NCBI RefSeq assembly: GCF_032464895.1
Contig: NZ_JAWDIC010000001.1
Span: 310,001 to 374,000 of the forward strand
Reading direction: 5' to 3'
Length of the DNA stretch: 64,000 nucleotides
Origin: Phycicoccus sp. M110.8
GTDB lineage: Bacteria > Actinomycetota > Actinomycetes > Actinomycetales > Dermatophilaceae
Part shown: piece after piece, positions 3,612-10,122 of the stretch
Layout of the letters: each line of letters starts with the position of its first letter
How positions within the stretch are numbered: the stretch's first letter is position 1
The notes under the pieces: generated by a model
Database searches by the model: none
The model's input: only the letters and a program-made list of their open reading frames with translations
What the model was told of the DNA's origin: nothing
Position numbers and translations under genes: made by a program

Positions 3612-3745
3612 GGTGACGCCGTCGCCCTCGGGTGACACCACGACGCCTTTCCAGGGGAAGCCGGTCCGAGTCCGGCGCTGACCCGCAACCGTAGGCCACC
3701 GCGAGGTGGCGAGCCGGAATGCCTGGGAGCGCGGAGCGGCTCCAT
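3612..3745 (+). promoter_or_regulatory. Cobalamin (B12) riboswitch
   Basis: The core reads GGGAAGCCGGTCCGAGTCC, then GGCGCTGACCCGCAACCG, then the B12 box GAGCCGGAATGCCTGGG at about 3710-3727, in the order and spacing of the cobalamin family. The remaining leader to the ATG at 3882 is G+C-rich and includes the ribosome site GAGAGG at 3772-3877 region end (3872-3877), so translational control is likely. A weak -10-like TAGGGT lies at about 3607-3612. The element precedes an operon of two surface proteins and an ECF transporter, and it is the main evidence that their substrate is a cobamide. Confidence 0.92.
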
Positions 3746-3881
3746 TTCCGTCGAGGTACGCGGGGCGGAGCCCGGACCCAGTCCGAGCTGCCCCCGGTTG
3801 TCCGCGCGAGCGCGGCACCGGGGTTTGTCACGTCTGGTGCCGGTGCCCGGTCGCGACACCGCTCGCATTTCGAGAGGCACC

Positions 3882-5525
3882 ATGCAGCTCCTTCCCACCA
3901 GCAGCCGCGCGGTCGGCGTGCTGACGCTGGCCACCGCGGCCGCCCTGCTCGCGCCGGGCACCGCCCTGGCCGCCACCCCGGCCCCGTCGCCCACGACCAG
4001 CGCGTCCGCGACGACCACCACGTCGCCGACCAGCCCGTCGGCCCCGACCACCACGACGGGCACGACCACGACCGCGACGGGCACGGCCTCCCCGACGACG
4101 TCCGGGAGCACTGCGACCGGCACGACCTCCCCCACCGCGTCCGGCACGTCCACGACCTCCGGGACCACCGCCCCGCGCTCGAGCACGAACGCGACCTCGC
4201 CGAAGGTCGCGGCCACGACCAGCGCCGCCGACCCGCAGGTGCCGTTCGGCACCCGGACCTCGCCGAAGGGCCTGCTGCCCGGCGCCACGTCCGCCCAGGC
4301 TGGCTACGCCGCGGGCTTCATGGTCCGCACGCTGGCCGCACGAGGCCACCACTACAACTACCCGGGCAGCACCTTCTTCGACGGCGGCAACACGATCGAC
4401 GCCGTCCTCGGGCTCGATGGTGCCGGCCTCGGCAGCACCGAGGCGGCGTCCGCCTTCGCCTACCTCACCGCGAACGTCGGCGGCTACATCGGCACCGACT
4501 ACTCCTCGCTGTATGCCGGGGCGACCGGCAAGGCGCTCCTCGCCGTCGTCGCCCAGGGCGCCAACCCGCGCGACGTCGGCCCCAAGCACCTCGATTTGCT
4601 CGCCGAGCTCGGGAAGTCCCTGGGCGCTGCCGAGCCGGGCCGCTACTCCGACCTGCCCGTGACGGGATGCGGGTACAGCCCCTGCGACTACTCCAACACC
4701 ATCGGGCAGGCGCTCGACGTGATCGGCGTCGGCCGGGCGACCGGCACCGTCCCGCAGTCGGCGGCGGACTACCTGCTCGCGCAGCAGTGCGCCGACGGTG
4801 GCTTCCGCGGCGACCTCGCCGCCGCCGGCGGGGCCTGCACCAGCGACGTCGACGCGACCGCGTTCGCGGTCCAGGCGGTCATCGGCCTGCAGGGGGCGAG
4901 CGACCCGGCCGCCGTCAAGGCGCTGTCCTTCCTCGCCGCCCGGCAGGCCGCGAACGGCGGCTTCCTCAACAGTGACGGCCAGTACAACGCCAACACCGCC
5001 GGAGTCGCCGCACAGGCCTTCGCCGCCGGAGGCCGCGCGGTCGAGCTCGCCCGGGCCCAGCAGTTCCTCGCCTCGCTCCAGCTCGACTGCACCGCGACGG
5101 CCGCCCTGCGCGGTGGCATCGCCTTCACCGCGGCGGACCGTTCAACCCTCACGAAGACGCCCGGCAACACGGCGGCGCTCGACCGCGCCCTGCGCGCGAC
5201 GCCGCAGGCCACCCTCGGCCTGGCCGGCGGCGACCTGCTGACCGTCACCTCCGACGGGGCGTCCGCCGCTGCTCCCGCGCCGACCTGTCCGACGGCACCG
5301 AGCACCTCCACGAGCAGCTCGACCACCACGGCACCGGCGGGCTCCCCCGCAGCGACCACCACCGCCGCACCTGCCCCGGCCGCCCCGGCCGCGGCCTCCG
5401 CGACCCCCGGCAGCCTCGCCTTCACCGGCGCCGACGTCGCCGCCACGGCCGCGCTCGGCCTGCTGCTCCTGCTCGGCGGCATCGCCGCGATCGTCCTGGC
5501 CCGCCGCAAGGGGGCGCACGCCTGA
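3882..5525 (+). CDS. Surface-anchored alpha/alpha-barrel protein, candidate cobalamin-binding (intrinsic factor alpha-domain-like)
   Basis: A 547-residue exported protein. I chose the ATG at 3882 because it follows the ribosome site GAGAGG and opens a signal peptide ending near GTALAA. A Ser/Thr/Pro linker of about 90 residues follows. The globular part has prenyltransferase/squalene-cyclase-type helical repeats, seen as QQCADGGFRGD and QAANGGFLNSDGQY. A second Thr/Pro/Ala linker leads to the sorting signal LAFTG, a hydrophobic helix and an RRK tail, which fits LAXTG recognition by class E sortases. The alpha domain of animal intrinsic factor and transcobalamin has the same barrel fold. The B12 riboswitch, the DUF4430 partner overlapping by one base and the ECF transporter support cobalamin capture. 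The fold is read from repeats; ligand binding is inference. Confidence 0.8.
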   Translation: MQLLPTSSRAVGVLTLATAAALLAPGTALAATPAPSPTTSASATTTTSPTSPSAPTTTTGTTTTATGTASPTTSGSTATGTTSPTASGTSTTSGTTAPRSSTNATSPKVAATTSAADPQVPFGTRTSPKGLLPGATSAQAGYAAGFMVRTLAARGHHYNYPGSTFFDGGNTIDAVLGLDGAGLGSTEAASAFAYLTANVGGYIGTDYSSLYAGATGKALLAVVAQGANPRDVGPKHLDLLAELGKSLGAAEPGRYSDLPVTGCGYSPCDYSNTIGQALDVIGVGRATGTVPQSAADYLLAQQCADGGFRGDLAAAGGACTSDVDATAFAVQAVIGLQGASDPAAVKALSFLAARQAANGGFLNSDGQYNANTAGVAAQAFAAGGRAVELARAQQFLASLQLDCTATAALRGGIAFTAADRSTLTKTPGNTAALDRALRATPQATLGLAGGDLLTVTSDGASAAAPAPTCPTAPSTSTSSSTTTAPAGSPAATTTAAPAPAAPAAASATPGSLAFTGADVAATAALGLLLLLGGIAAIVLARRKGAHA

Positions 5526-6367
5526 TGCGCCGCCTCGGCCGGTTCCTGGCCGCAGCAGGGCTCGCCGTCGCCGGCGGCCTCGCCCTCCCGGGCGGGGCCG
5601 CGCAGGCGGCGGCGTGCTCGGGCACGACCGGCGTCACGGTCGTCATCGACTACGGCTCCACCTCGAGCACGCTGTGCGGCCCCGACGCGTCGAGCGCCAT
5701 CCGTGTGCTGACCTCGGTGGCCTCCGTCACCTACCCGCCGCAGTACCCCGGCACGGTGGTCTGCCAGATCAACAGCGTGCCGTCCCAGCCGTGCACGCGG
5801 ATGCCCCCGAGCAGCGCCTACTGGGCGTTCTTCCACGCGACCCGTGGCGGGTCGTGGGTCTACAGCAGCAGCGGCGTCGCTGAGTACGACCCCCCGGCGG
5901 GCAGCGTCATCGGGTTCGCCTTCGGCTCCGGCGGCGCGCCGAGCTCGGCCCCTCCCGCGGCCGCGCCGAAGCCGTCCCCGAGGCCGAGCCCCTCGTCGAC
6001 CTCGAGCACCCCCCGCAGCACCGGGACCTCGTCGACCCCACGGACGACGAGCTCCTCGCGCCCGTCCACCCGCACGACCGTCCTGCCGAACGGCACCACC
6101 GCGACGGTGCCCGCGACACCGAAGGGCAAGGCGTCGACCACCACTCGCCCTGCGGCGAGCACGACCTCGGCCACCGCGCCCGCCACGACCACGACGACCA
6201 CCGGGCCTCCGACATCCGGGTCCACCGAGCAGACCGACGCGGCGGCGACCCAGCCCAGCAGCGGGTCCGGCACGCCGACCTCGCTGCTCGCGGGCGTCGG
6301 CCTGGTGACCCTGGTCGGCGCCGCCGCGGCATACCTCGCGCTGCGCCGGCGCGCCCAGCAGCACTAG
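5525..6367 (+). CDS. Surface DUF4430 protein, candidate cobalamin-binding beta domain
   Basis: A 280-residue exported protein whose ATG overlaps the previous stop in TGATG. A signal peptide ends near AAQAAA. The DUF4430-like domain spans roughly residues 35-140, with a GVTVVIDYGSTSS strand, two separated cysteines, the aromatic stretch SAYWAFFHATRGGSW and a closing segment EYDPPAGSVIGFAFG. A long Pro/Ser/Thr linker and one C-terminal membrane helix with an RRRAQQH tail follow. No clear LPXTG-like motif is visible, so it is probably held by the helix. DUF4430 is the family of the C-terminal beta domain of intrinsic factor and transcobalamin. Together with the preceding barrel protein it would form a two-part cobalamin clamp on the cell surface. 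The pairing is inference. Confidence 0.8.
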   Translation: MRRLGRFLAAAGLAVAGGLALPGGAAQAAACSGTTGVTVVIDYGSTSSTLCGPDASSAIRVLTSVASVTYPPQYPGTVVCQINSVPSQPCTRMPPSSAYWAFFHATRGGSWVYSSSGVAEYDPPAGSVIGFAFGSGGAPSSAPPAAAPKPSPRPSPSSTSSTPRSTGTSSTPRTTSSSRPSTRTTVLPNGTTATVPATPKGKASTTTRPAASTTSATAPATTTTTTGPPTSGSTEQTDAAATQPSSGSGTPTSLLAGVGLVTLVGAAAAYLALRRRAQQH

Positions 6368-6374
6368 GGCATCC

Positions 6375-7463
6375 ATGAGCAGGCTCGGCGCACCGCTCCC
6401 CCGCCACCTCCACCCGGTCGCCTGGTGGGTGTGGGCGGTCGGGCTCGCCGTCGCCTGCTCGCGCACCACCAACCCGCTCCTGCTGCTGCTCGCCGTGGCC
6501 GTCGCCGGGCTGGTCGTCGTCGCCAAGCGCGGCAGCTCGCCGTGGGCGCGGGCGTTCCGGCTCTACCTCGGGCTGGGGGCCTTCGTCGTCGTCGTGCGGG
6601 TCGTGCTGCACGTGCTCGTCGGGTTCAAGTTCGGGGAGCACCGGCTGTGGACGCTGCCCAGCGTCGACCTCCCCGGCATCACGCTCCTCGGGCCGCTGTA
6701 CCTCGAGGGCCTGCTGGCCGCCGCGGTGGAGGGGCTGCGGCTGGCCGCCATCATCGCGTGCATCGGGGCGGCCAACGCACTCGCCAACCCCAAGCGGCTG
6801 CTGCGGGCGGTGCCGGCCGCCCTGCACGAGGTCGGCACCGCGGTCGTGATCGCCGTGACGGTCGCGCCCCAGCTCGCCGACAGCGTGCAGCGGGTCCGAC
6901 GCGCACGGGCCCTGCGTGGCGAGGGCGGCACGGGGCTGCGCGCCGTCGGCCGCGTGGCGCTGCCGGTGCTGCAGGACACCCTCGACCGGTCGCTGCTGCT
7001 CGCGTCCGCGATGGACTCGCGCGGCTACGGCCGCCGGGTGGCCCAGGGCACGCTCGCGCGGCGGGCCACGGCCACCCTGACCCTGGTGGGGCTGCTGGGC
7101 GCCGCGCTCGGGACGTACGGGCTGCTCGACACCAGTGCCCCGGCTCTCGTGGGCGCGCCCATGCTCGTGGCCGGCCTCGGACTCTGCGCCGCCGGCATGG
7201 TGGTCGGCGGCCGGGCGGTGCACCGCACCGTGTACCGCCGGGACCCGTGGGCCCTCCCCGAGTGGGTCGTGGCCGGCAGCGGGGTCCTGGCCACCGTCGC
7301 GGTGCTGGCACAGGCCACGGTCGCGCCTGCCGGGCTCGCCCAGCCCCTGTCGCCGCTCGCGCCCCCGGCGCTGCCGCTCCTCGCCGTGGCCGGGCTGCTC
7401 GTGGCCGCCCTGCCCGCGTTCCTGGCCCCGTCACCCCCCGTCCCCCGTCGGGAGTCGTCGTGA
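6375..7463 (+). CDS. ECF transporter transmembrane component (EcfT)
   Basis: A 362-residue membrane protein of the energy-coupling factor T family, which couples the ATPase to the substrate-binding S component. It starts seven bases after the DUF4430 gene. Several hydrophobic helices occupy the first 120 residues and the C-terminal half. Two Arg-Gly coupling motifs are seen: QRVRRARALRG near residue 175 and SAMDSRGYGRR near residue 215. The C-terminal portion after residue 240 adds further helices beyond the EcfT core. Its stop overlaps the GTG of the ATPase gene. The riboswitch upstream makes cobalamin the likely cargo of the complex. Confidence 0.88.
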   Translation: MSRLGAPLPRHLHPVAWWVWAVGLAVACSRTTNPLLLLLAVAVAGLVVVAKRGSSPWARAFRLYLGLGAFVVVVRVVLHVLVGFKFGEHRLWTLPSVDLPGITLLGPLYLEGLLAAAVEGLRLAAIIACIGAANALANPKRLLRAVPAALHEVGTAVVIAVTVAPQLADSVQRVRRARALRGEGGTGLRAVGRVALPVLQDTLDRSLLLASAMDSRGYGRRVAQGTLARRATATLTLVGLLGAALGTYGLLDTSAPALVGAPMLVAGLGLCAAGMVVGGRAVHRTVYRRDPWALPEWVVAGSGVLATVAVLAQATVAPAGLAQPLSPLAPPALPLLAVAGLLVAALPAFLAPSPPVPRRESS

Positions 7464-9163
7464 CCGCCCCCGTCGTCGTGCTCGACGACGTCACCGTGCG
7501 GTATGCCGGCGCGCCCGGGCCCACGCTCCGGTCGGCGTCCGTCGTGGTCGAGGAGGGCGAGCTCGCCCTCGTCGTGGGCCGCACCGGCTCGGGCAAGTCC
7601 ACCCTGCTCGGGGCCGTGAGCGGCCGGGTGCCGCACTTCACCGGCGGCCACCTGTCGGGGCGGGTCACCGTCTCCGGGCTCGACACCCGCACGCACCGGC
7701 CCCGCGACCTCGCCGGCACGGTCGGCGTCGTCGCGCAGGACCCGCTCGCCGGCTTCGTCACCGACACGGTCGAGGAGGAGCTCGCCTACACCCTCGAGCA
7801 GCTCGCCGTGGACCCGCCGGCGATGCGCCGCAGGGTCGAGGAGGTCCTGGACGTCCTCGGGATCGCCGAGCTGCGCGACGCCCCCCTGCGCGACCTCTCC
7901 GGCGGCCAGCAGCAGCGGGTGGCGATCGGGGCCGTCCTCACCGCCGGGCCCCGGCTGCTCGTGCTGGACGAGCCGACCTCGGCCCTCGACCCGGTCGGGG
8001 CCGAGGAGGTCCTGGCCACGCTGACCCGGCTCGTGCACGACCTCGGGCTCACGGTCGTCGTCTCCGAGCACCGCCTCGAGCGAGTCGTGGGGGTGGCCGA
8101 CGTCGTGCTCGCCGTCGGTGACGACGGGTCGGTCCGGCAGGGGGCGCCGCGCGAGGTGCTGGCCGACTTCCCGCTCGCCCCGCCCGTGGTCGAGCTGGGC
8201 CGCTGGGCCGGGTGGGACCCGCTGCCCCTCACGGTCCGGGAGGCACGGCGCGCCGCCGCGCCGCTGCGCCGCGACCTCGGGCAGGCGGCACCCGACCAGG
8301 CCGCTCACGGGCAGCCGGTGGTCCGCGACGACGTGACCCGCGAGCCCGAGTCGTCGTCCCCCGCGACGGTCACGCGGCTGACGGCCCGGGACGTCGGGGT
8401 CAGGCACGGGCGCGTCGAGGCCGTGCGCGACGTCGACCTGGACCTGCGCGCCGGTGAGGTGCTCGTCCTCATGGGACGCAACGGGTCGGGCAAGTCCTCG
8501 CTCCTGTGGGCCCTGCACGGCACGGGTCACCGCACCGCCGGCACGGTGGCGGTCGTGGAGGCGGCCGGCCACCGGACCGACCCGGCCGTGGCGGCCCCGC
8601 GGGACCGTCGACGGCTCGTGGGACTGGTGCCCCAGAGCGCACCCGACCTGCTGTACCTCGACACGGTCGGCACCGAGTGCCGCCAGGCCGACCACGAGTC
8701 GGGGGCCCGGCCGGGCACCACCCGCGACCTGCTCGACCGGCTGGCGCCGGAGATCCCCGACGACCTGCACCCGCGGGACCTGTCCGAGGGCCAGCAGCTC
8801 GCAATGGCCGTGGCCGTCCAGCTCGCGGCCGCGCCCGGGGTGGTCCTGCTCGACGAGCCCACCCGGGGCCTGGACCGCCCCGGCAAGGAGGCCCTCGTGG
8901 AGGTCCTGCGTGGCCTGGCCGCCGGCGGCCGTGCGGTCGCCGTCGCGACGCACGACGTCGAGTTCGCCGCCGAGGTGGCCGACCGCGTCGTCGTCCTCGC
9001 GCAGGGGCGGGTGGTGGCGGACGGCCCGGCGCGGGACGTCCTCGCCGACTCCCCCGAGTTCGCGCCGCAGGTGGCCAAGGTGCTGGCGCCGTCGCGGGTC
9101 CTCACCGTCGCCGAGGCCGTGGCGACCGCGGCGACCCTGCCGCGCCAGGGGGTCGCTCGATGA
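7460..9163 (+). CDS. ECF transporter ATP-binding protein, fused A-A' domains
   Basis: A 567-residue duplicated ABC ATPase that powers the ECF module. The GTG at 7460 overlaps the ecfT stop in GTGA. Domain 1 has Walker A GRTGSGKST, Q-loop VVAQDP, signature LSGGQQQR, Walker B LLVLDEPTSALD and the switch SEHR. Domain 2 starts near residue 305 with Walker A GRNGSGKSS, Q-loop VPQSAP, the variant signature LSEGQQLA, Walker B VVLLDEPTRGLD and switch ATHD. Most firmicute ECF systems use two separate ATPases, whereas fusion into one chain is common in actinobacteria. The variant second signature may make the two sites unequal. Confidence 0.92.
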   Translation: MTAPVVVLDDVTVRYAGAPGPTLRSASVVVEEGELALVVGRTGSGKSTLLGAVSGRVPHFTGGHLSGRVTVSGLDTRTHRPRDLAGTVGVVAQDPLAGFVTDTVEEELAYTLEQLAVDPPAMRRRVEEVLDVLGIAELRDAPLRDLSGGQQQRVAIGAVLTAGPRLLVLDEPTSALDPVGAEEVLATLTRLVHDLGLTVVVSEHRLERVVGVADVVLAVGDDGSVRQGAPREVLADFPLAPPVVELGRWAGWDPLPLTVREARRAAAPLRRDLGQAAPDQAAHGQPVVRDDVTREPESSSPATVTRLTARDVGVRHGRVEAVRDVDLDLRAGEVLVLMGRNGSGKSSLLWALHGTGHRTAGTVAVVEAAGHRTDPAVAAPRDRRRLVGLVPQSAPDLLYLDTVGTECRQADHESGARPGTTRDLLDRLAPEIPDDLHPRDLSEGQQLAMAVAVQLAAAPGVVLLDEPTRGLDRPGKEALVEVLRGLAAGGRAVAVATHDVEFAAEVADRVVVLAQGRVVADGPARDVLADSPEFAPQVAKVLAPSRVLTVAEAVATAATLPRQGVAR

Positions 9164-10122
9164 GTGCACCGACCGCCGCCACCCACCGGGTCCGCGCCGC
9201 CGTCGCCCTGCGCCCCCGGTCCACCGCCGCCCTGCTGCTGGTCTCCGTCGCCGGCCTCCTGGCCTTCCTGTGGCCGCTGCTGGCAAGCACCGACTCCCAG
9301 CTGGGGCGCAGCGCAGACGCCCCCCTCGTCTTCGCCCTGCTGCTGCCGCTGCTGCTCGCCGTGGTGCTCTCCGAGATCGCCGAGGGCGGCCTCGACGTCA
9401 AGGCCGTGGCGATGCTCGGGGTGCTGTCCGCCGTCGGTGCGGCGCTACGCCCACTCGGAGCCGGGACCGCCGGGCTCGAGACGGTGTTCTTCCTGCTCGT
9501 GCTCGGGGGGCGCGTGTTCGGACCCGGGTTCGGCTTCGTGCTGGGCTCGACCACCCTGTTCGCGTCCGCGCTCGTCACCGGCGGCGTGGGTCCGTGGCTG
9601 CCGTACCAGATGCTCGGGGCCGCGTGGGTCGGCCTGGGCGCGGGGCTGCTGCCGCGCGTCCGCCCGCGCTGGGAGGTGCCGCTGCTCTGCGCCTACGGGG
9701 CCCTGGCCGGGCTGCTGTACGGCGTGGCGCTCGACTTCTCCTTCTGGCCCTTCGCCACCGGGCTCGACGGCCACCTGTCCTTCGTCGCGGGGGCCCCGGC
9801 CTGGGAGAACCTCCAGCGGTTCGCCGTCTTCTCCGCCGCGACGAGCCTGTGGTGGGACCTCGGGCGAGCGGTCACCAACGTGGTCCTCATCGCCGTGACC
9901 GGCCGCGCCGTGCTCGCCACCCTGCGCCGGGCCGCCCGCCGCGCCGCCTTCGACGCAAGTACCGGCTTCGACGGGCCGCCGCCCGCAGCCGCCGGGTCAG
10001 CCCCAGGACAAGCCCCCGGGAAGGCCCCGCGGGACGCCCGGAGGGACGCCCCGGCAGCGGCGAGGAGGGCCGAGCCCGTCGCCGACGAGGAGCCGGCACC
10101 TCGGCATACGCTGCGGGGATGA
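9160..10122 (+). CDS. ECF transporter S component, probably cobalamin-specific
   Basis: A 320-residue membrane protein whose ATG overlaps the ATPase stop in ATGA. Six to seven hydrophobic segments cover residues 20-240, followed by a hydrophilic tail rich in Ala, Pro and Arg. The glycine-rich segment GGRVFGPGFGFVLGSTT resembles the S-component core helix pair. S components bind the vitamin and topple in the membrane to deliver it. Its place directly after T and A-A' in a cobalamin-riboswitch operon suggests cobalamin or cobinamide, by analogy with the CbrT-type S component of lactobacilli. I cannot assign an exact subfamily by sight. Confidence 0.82.
   Translation: MSAPTAATHRVRAAVALRPRSTAALLLVSVAGLLAFLWPLLASTDSQLGRSADAPLVFALLLPLLLAVVLSEIAEGGLDVKAVAMLGVLSAVGAALRPLGAGTAGLETVFFLLVLGGRVFGPGFGFVLGSTTLFASALVTGGVGPWLPYQMLGAAWVGLGAGLLPRVRPRWEVPLLCAYGALAGLLYGVALDFSFWPFATGLDGHLSFVAGAPAWENLQRFAVFSAATSLWWDLGRAVTNVVLIAVTGRAVLATLRRAARRAAFDASTGFDGPPPAAAGSAPGQAPGKAPRDARRDAPAAARRAEPVADEEPAPRHTLRG

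Follow-up and report, generated by a model that had tools for sequence, protein, structure and literature searches.

How Gram-positive bacteria capture vitamin B12 before importing it is poorly known, and a locus of the soil-type actinobacterium Phycicoccus sp. M110.8 raises the question whether some of them do so with the two halves of an intrinsic factor, displayed as separate surface proteins. The window analysed here is a stretch of 64,000 nucleotides (assembly GCF_032464895.1, contig NZ_JAWDIC010000001.1, positions 310,001 to 374,000, forward strand), in which a cobalamin riboswitch precedes genes for two surface proteins, P1 and P2, and for an energy-coupling factor (ECF) importer. This operon is likely to be a cobamide-scavenging system, P2 and P1 capturing the ligand outside the cell and handing it over to the S component for ECF import. 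Its features, in window coordinates, are as follows.

3651..3731, plus strand: aptamer core of a cobalamin riboswitch, short actinobacterial form (family model R1, 88.5 bits; below the RF00174 cut-off)
3882..5525, plus strand: P1 (ATG at 3882, stop at 5525), SCO2321-like, predicted to be secreted and to contain an alpha/alpha barrel; proposed to act as the barrel half, or lid, of a B12 clamp
4281..5288, plus strand: alpha/alpha-barrel domain of P1 (alignments A2 and A6, fold search, profile match to the alpha domain of intrinsic factor and transcobalamin)
5415..5429, plus strand: LAFTG sorting-signal motif of P1, ahead of a hydrophobic stretch and RRK (the genome has two sortase-family genes)
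5525..6367, plus strand: P2, SCO2322-like, predicted to be secreted and held in the membrane by its C terminus, with a beta domain; proposed to be the core half that binds B12
5600..5947, plus strand: transcobalamin-like beta domain of P2
6375..7463, plus strand: EcfT transmembrane component, CbiQ family (PF02361, 37.9 bits, cut-off 25)
7460..9163, plus strand: fused EcfA-EcfA' ATPase (two ABC_tran stretches; TIGR04520, 253.6 bits, below the cut-off of 315)
9160..10122, plus strand: ECF S component, cobamides being its candidate substrate (PF12822, 27.8 bits, just under the cut-off of 30.7)

The five genes are co-directional and closely packed downstream of the riboswitch, with overlaps at three of the four junctions. 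P1 and P2 are separate open reading frames (ORFs) that overlap in different frames, the EcfT and EcfA-EcfA' genes share a GTG/TGA overlap at 7460-7463, and the S component starts with the ATG at 9160. A T component, two ATPase domains and an S component in one operon make this a group I ECF transporter. The tight operon of surface proteins, EcfT, fused EcfA-A' and S component announced by the original prediction is borne out by the ORFs and the Pfam matches, that of the S component being below cut-off. The predicted riboswitch at its head is confirmed as well, by the R1 score and by covarying stems, although its Rfam score stays below the gathering cut-off: RF00174 matches 3655-3723 (plus strand) with 27.5 bits against a curated 31.5 (E 4.3e-5 in 601 bp, 7e-5 over the whole 4.1-Mb genome), and a scan of the whole window at the curated cut-off missed it. 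The core aligns with the Rfam consensus, and no other clan was matched at E <= 10. R1 is a covariance model made from 24 homologous leaders, that of the window among them; across these homologues 9 of 22 pairs kept double-sided changes.

Is this arrangement a local accident? A scan with P1 as sole query, over 84,980 species with one genome each, found 98 relatives, and survey counts refer to the best 80 of these 98 loci. All 80 titles name actinobacteria, the closest named relatives being Phycicoccus and Knoellia. P2, EcfT, EcfA and the S component lie within 6.5 kb of P1 in 65 of the 67 loci whose sequence extends more than 6.2 kb past the start of P1 (L056 and L089 lack the full set; in L044 the ECF genes stand on the upstream side of P1), hence the operon is not a chance grouping. 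The riboswitch begins 60-678 nt ahead of the P1 match in 61 of the 80 loci, and lies upstream of P1 in 40 of 59 once the R1 training loci are removed. A parallel check scanned 58 related genomes with the P1 family model, tallied by hand, and 23 have a match at E <= 0.01. In all 19 with a match at E <= 1e-10 the riboswitch lies shortly before it on the same strand (G000, G033 and G035 belong to the R1 training set); among the four weaker ones it is present in G018, and none was found on the contig of the match in G028, G032 and G051. The expectation that P1-P2 pairs stand under B12 riboswitches therefore holds in 61/80 loci and 19/19 genomes, and 19/80 loci lack a convincing riboswitch. In the latter (L052, L056-L058, L063, L065, L072, L082, L086-L089, L091-L093, L096, L100, L106 and L109) no Rfam family reached its gathering cut-off, L052 having been scored as riboswitch-less with a weak R1 match of 26.3 bits; most of them still carry the operon.

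What, then, are the two surface proteins? With single sequences Pfam shows neither DUF4430 nor a significant prenyltransferase match (P1 against Prenyltrans, 16.3 bits, cut-off 26.5), so that homologue alignments and models were needed. For P2, the solved structures nearest to its model are 3u7z and the beta domains of haptocorrin and transcobalamin, as anticipated. The folding alignment, A4, carries permuted homologues as separate half rows, and the model thus leans partly on the permutation described below. P2 had been announced as a DUF4430 surface protein: the surface protein stands, the label does not, since PF14478 has no match in the window P2. Nor has it any in the whole genome at E <= 0.01, and among aligned P2 sequences 3 of 17 match, with a best E of 0.017; likeness to a DUF4430-type domain rests on fold, the Pfam label being unsupported by sequence. 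A C-terminal hydrophobic stretch is present in 73 of 77 P2 ORFs, that of the window included. Against NF040672 (SCO2322 family) the P2 domain scores 30.7 bits, under the cut-off of 85. Matches of the P2 sequence profile to the Protein Data Bank (PDB) were antibody chains (best E 0.009) and were taken as noise. Among the 98 related genomes the sole Pfam DUF4430 matches are L115 and L116, and R1 finds nothing in G043, one of the two genomes concerned.

P1 combines a signal-like N terminus, a Ser/Thr-rich linker, LAFTG, a hydrophobic stretch and an RRK end. With an LxxTG motif, a hydrophobic stretch, a basic tail and two sortase-family matches over cut-off in the genome, it is a predicted LPXTG-type sortase substrate; the NCBIfam LAVTG and LAXTG models match below cut-off. 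An LxxTG-like signal with hydrophobic stretch occurs in 11 of the 19 unpermuted-class P1 ORFs, window included, while permuted ones have the signal in 2/62 and a hydrophobic end in 31/62. The AlphaFold2 model of P1 (4227-5288) has a pLDDT of 93.2 and a pTM of 0.91. It was folded from alignment A6, made of full rows and of the first halves only of permuted homologues; an earlier alignment with both halves misplaced the second ones and was excluded from folding. Foldseek lists transcobalamin at rank 26 (E 3e-4, TMq 0.49), many other toroids scoring higher, though VIA-align has no transcobalamin among the 50 matches listed. Model and fold searches place P1 within the alpha/alpha-barrel fold, transcobalamin included, and with the motif at 5415-5429 this upholds the original description of an LAFTG-anchored barrel protein, the anchoring being predicted. 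P1 scores 50.5 bits against NF053823 (SCO2321 family, cut-off 300).

The comparison with the animal carriers of B12 was made with profiles of the unpermuted families (P1, 16 rows; P2, 17 rows) against five such carriers, using hhalign and 100 shuffles. P2 scores 29.3 against the animal beta domain (shuffles: mean 9.9, standard deviation 2.0, maximum 18.2) and P1 27.1 against the alpha domain (mean 11.5, standard deviation 2.2, maximum 20.2), with 0/100 shuffles as high in either case. Both matches are collinear, the crossed pairs used as control stay at null level (9.0 and 9.1), and with three transcobalamins only as target the scores are 19.1 and 18.2. Neither P1 nor P2 matched the Pfam family of intrinsic factor and transcobalamin at E <= 1 with the HMMER filters on, and neither the 80 loci nor the first 20 kb of the window yielded an ORF with both barrel and beta domains. 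Intrinsic factor, transcobalamin and haptocorrin likewise consist of an alpha/alpha barrel and a beta domain, in the same order and with a shared beta-domain fold. They are, however, single polypeptides, where we see two genes and two anchored proteins; the animal route is endocytosis, whereas here the operon includes an ECF importer; and P1, which lacks the Pfam match, is nearer to terpene cyclases.

A further link between P1 and P2 lies in their circular permutation, assessed with models made from unpermuted members only. Of 78 P2-positive ORFs, 37 have two stretches, always swapped and never straight, and 41 have a single one, the second stretch being weak in most swapped ORFs (i-E 3e-6 to 9e-3); for P1 the order is swapped in 56/84, straight in 2 (internal repeats) and single in 26. 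With iterated models P1 and P2 share the same state in 74 of 76 loci, both being permuted in 59 and neither in 15. The window has the animal-like order. When permuted P2 (every second of 59 sequences) was re-ordered in silico, its match to the animal beta domain rose from 18.6 (31 columns) to 23.0 (94 columns), while 40 shuffles gave a mean of 10.9-11.1 and a maximum of 16.0. Most Streptomyces homologues fetched for the SCO2321 and SCO2322 families, whose NCBIfam names give no function and whose models P1 and P2 match below cut-off, are permuted relative to the window. The joint permutation was seen in L046-L114 (Streptomyces, Nanopelagicales metagenome-assembled genomes and others), for instance at L050:7890-9041 and 9164-9658.

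From the computed gene set and order, the folds, the regulatory element and their co-occurrence we infer a ligand that the two proteins enclose and hand over, a process which might work as follows. P2, held in the membrane beside the S component, would bind cobamides outside the cell; wall-held P1 would supply the second face, and the pair would enclose the ligand in the way intrinsic factor does with its two domains. This complex would increase affinity and reach and pass the cobamide to the S component, through which the EcfT/EcfA module would drive import, and at high cellular cobalamin the riboswitch would reduce expression of all five genes. The minimal unit may be P2 with the ECF module, P1 being an optional lid. 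A wider proposal, on which we are evenly divided, is that actinobacteria, streptomycetes included, display a split intrinsic factor, its beta half anchored in the membrane and its barrel half in wall or membrane, the two clamping cobamides outside the cell to supply an ECF importer. Such a clamp would have evolved from a beta-only ECF accessory plus a barrel lid, both halves having been permuted together in one large lineage that kept the system; the animal carriers would be a fused version of the bacterial arrangement, by shared descent or convergence.

The core and lid distinction comes from loci away from the P1 survey. Thirteen regions were fetched around other riboswitch matches, among them the second riboswitch of the own genome. 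Eight contain P2-EcfT-EcfA-S; L128 has a divergent P1, and the seven others (L127, L129, L130, L131, L134, L136 and L137) have no P1 match in the stretch, so that the pair is not obligate. No operon of this kind is present in the remaining five, of which one is the leader of the genome's own nrdAB genes and another a stretch of 4 kb. Among twelve further regions, P1, P2 and ECF genes occur together in six (L142, L144-L147 and L151), L148 overlaps L127, and L143 has riboswitch, P2 and ECF without P1, which brings the P1-less stretches to eight; the other four (L140, L141, L149 and L150) are taken up below. P1 may reside elsewhere in such genomes, since the divergent P1 in the genome of L128 escaped the family model, and in that of L131 this model matches another contig weakly. 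Because P2-ECF stretches occur without P1, P2 and the ECF module seem to form the core, with P1 as a lid added to it. In keeping with this, the fragments of cleaved intrinsic factor, IF30 and IF20, still bind cyanocobalamin tightly and work together (passages of PMC6257451), and PDB entry 5np4 is titled as an isolated transcobalamin beta domain solved with cyanocobalamin. Parts may also be multiplied: there are three P2 copies in L144, a P1-P2-P1-P2-ECF order in L151, an extra P1 after the S gene in L146 and an extra P2 in that place in L045 (13990-14670). Some Streptomyces loci have a second barrel-type ORF on the opposite strand, some 3-5 kb upstream of P1, at about 100 bits with the P1 model (L050:4139-4771 and L058:2658-3503, both minus). 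In the window, the gene before the riboswitch, on its upstream side, is a divergent minus-strand one, presumably ileS-like.

To be sure, the absence of P1 from eight stretches is one of several results that weigh against a split intrinsic factor. Of the 19 loci without a convincing riboswitch, 13 are titled Streptomyces, and L149 and L150 have P2 and ECF genes without any cobalamin riboswitch found (their EcfA ORFs are separate and their S component more distant). The probabilities given by hhalign itself are low, 46% for P2 and 5% for P1, hence the shuffles carry the weight of the profile test. Permuted P1 scores 16.0 against the alpha domain of intrinsic factor and 15.9 once re-ordered (40 shuffles: mean 12.3, maximum 15.3-15.4). 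By sequence and by fold P1 is nearer to squalene-hopene and drimenyl cyclases than to transcobalamin, which is missing among all 52 PDB matches of profile A6 (E <= 10). The capture system first proposed is therefore supported in part, by the folds and the riboswitch link, and weakened by the riboswitch-less loci, the cyclase kinship and the optional P1. In an unlikely alternative, P2 alone is a cobamide-binding ECF accessory and P1 a wall-anchored scaffold or polymer-binding barrel that shares only the riboswitch: eight stretches have no P1 match, its nearest relatives are terpene cyclases and other toroids, and its permuted form has almost no alpha-domain signal. Yet the unpermuted P1 profile is collinear with that domain and above all 100 shuffles, the permutation states of P1 and P2 are concordant in 74/76 loci, and in L140 (760-2168) and L141 (9969-11139) P1 stands directly behind the riboswitch with no P2 or ECF genes in the fetched stretch, and thus follows cobalamin control even by itself. 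P1 of L141 has a TOBE-containing ABC importer cluster, probably of the molybdate type, after it.

The cyclase kinship (P1 profile against squalene-hopene cyclase, E 4.9e-24) could also point to P1 as a secreted enzyme, either a terpene cyclase or a prenyltransferase-like one, the importer carrying other cargo such as folate or cobalt under indirect riboswitch control. We regard this as highly improbable. Type II terpene cyclases have the acid motif DxDD; DxDD[TS] occurs in 0/84 P1-model-positive plus-strand ORFs, that of the window included, for which reason P1 was rejected as such an enzyme. A signal-like N terminus and a sorting motif also speak against it, as do the B12 carriers among the fold neighbours of P2. 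As for cargo, EcfT belongs to the CbiQ family, named for cobalt transport, and the folate model TIGR04518 matches 9 of 24 aligned S components (that of the window is not among them), whose profile against the PDB at E <= 10 finds no solved S component and one unrelated match at 0.83. Folate-like sequences do not exclude B12, since passages of PMC10960864 describe ECF-FolT2 as a close relative of ECF-CbrT, a proven B12 importer.

Cobinamide is carried by ECF-CbrT as well as cobalamin (passages of PMC5997447), and it is conceivable, if unlikely, that the pair scavenges a corrinoid intermediate of this kind, or several cobamides, rather than cobalamin itself. Genomes with S components in the window's class, own genome and order included, have CbiC in 11 of 15 cases of the phylum sample and may therefore make cobamides. 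On the other side, the own genome has a NrdJ match (adenosylcobalamin-dependent ribonucleotide reductase, 613 bits, over cut-off, C2:99650-101485; the model also matches 11/14 control genomes, 7 over cut-off), and the predicted NrdJ would need a complete cobamide, though none of these results tells one cobamide from another. CbiC has no match there, so that the genome appears to use cobalamin without the CbiC step of its synthesis. Its other, strong cobalamin riboswitch (73.9 bits, L139:3808-4035 = C1:1989807-1990034, minus strand) has class I ribonucleotide reductase genes directly behind it. Within the family, CbiC occurs in 8/29 genomes with the S component and 6/7 without (p 0.008, uncorrected for kinship); among 246 genomes of the phylum the figures, hand-tallied like the former, are 14/56 and 61/190 (p 0.33), and this lack of a trend counts against our proposal too. 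A link of the importer with lost B12 synthesis was thus discarded, as it holds inside the family only, and the operon is not just a mark of auxotrophs.

We return to scavenging by P2, P1 and the ECF module, to ask where it stands among known systems. The predicted EcfT, fused EcfA-A' and S component are confirmed (PF02361 over cut-off, two ABC stretches, PF12822 just below), and in our best reading they belong with the known B12 importers of the ECF-CbrT type, which in Lactobacillus is likewise tied to B12 genes (nrdJ-cbrS-cbrT-pduO; passages of PMC5997447). In Lacticaseibacillus rhamnosus, excerpts of PMC9963975 place a DUF4430 protein near the rtpR gene and tabulate an 'additional lipoprotein component of putative cobalamin ECF transporter', the two being presumably of one kind. 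The passages on either system describe neither a barrel partner nor a comparison with intrinsic factor. Unlike ECF-CbrT, the operon has its own EcfT and EcfA-EcfA' genes, and the PDB profile search with its S component brought up no match to CbrT. The predicted CbrTUV type, a name used for actinobacteria, is likewise among the closest known systems. RUMGNA_00854 of Ruminococcus gnavus (3u7z), to which we take the DUF4430 label to apply, is a 'putative metal binding protein' with B12 missing from its entry title, and a literature search by name found no paper. BtuG and BtuH of Bacteroidetes are surface B12 catchers ahead of an importer, as proposed here (passages of PMC6977713 and PMC8941943), and BtuFCD imports B12 with an extracytoplasmic binding protein (passages of PMC5997447); BtuF, however, serves an ordinary ABC importer as its periplasmic binding protein, and the operon has no such gene. 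In the open-licence literature we found no bacterial intrinsic-factor-like or DUF4430-cobalamin system apart from the Lacticaseibacillus annotation, and no paper linking a barrel protein to a B12 ECF importer or comparing the pair with intrinsic factor. If the proposal is true, two conserved actinobacterial surface families so far without an assigned function would gain one, and a medically important human protein family would have a bacterial counterpart. The two-domain clamp would then come with a natural series of beta-only, split, duplicated and circularly permuted forms.

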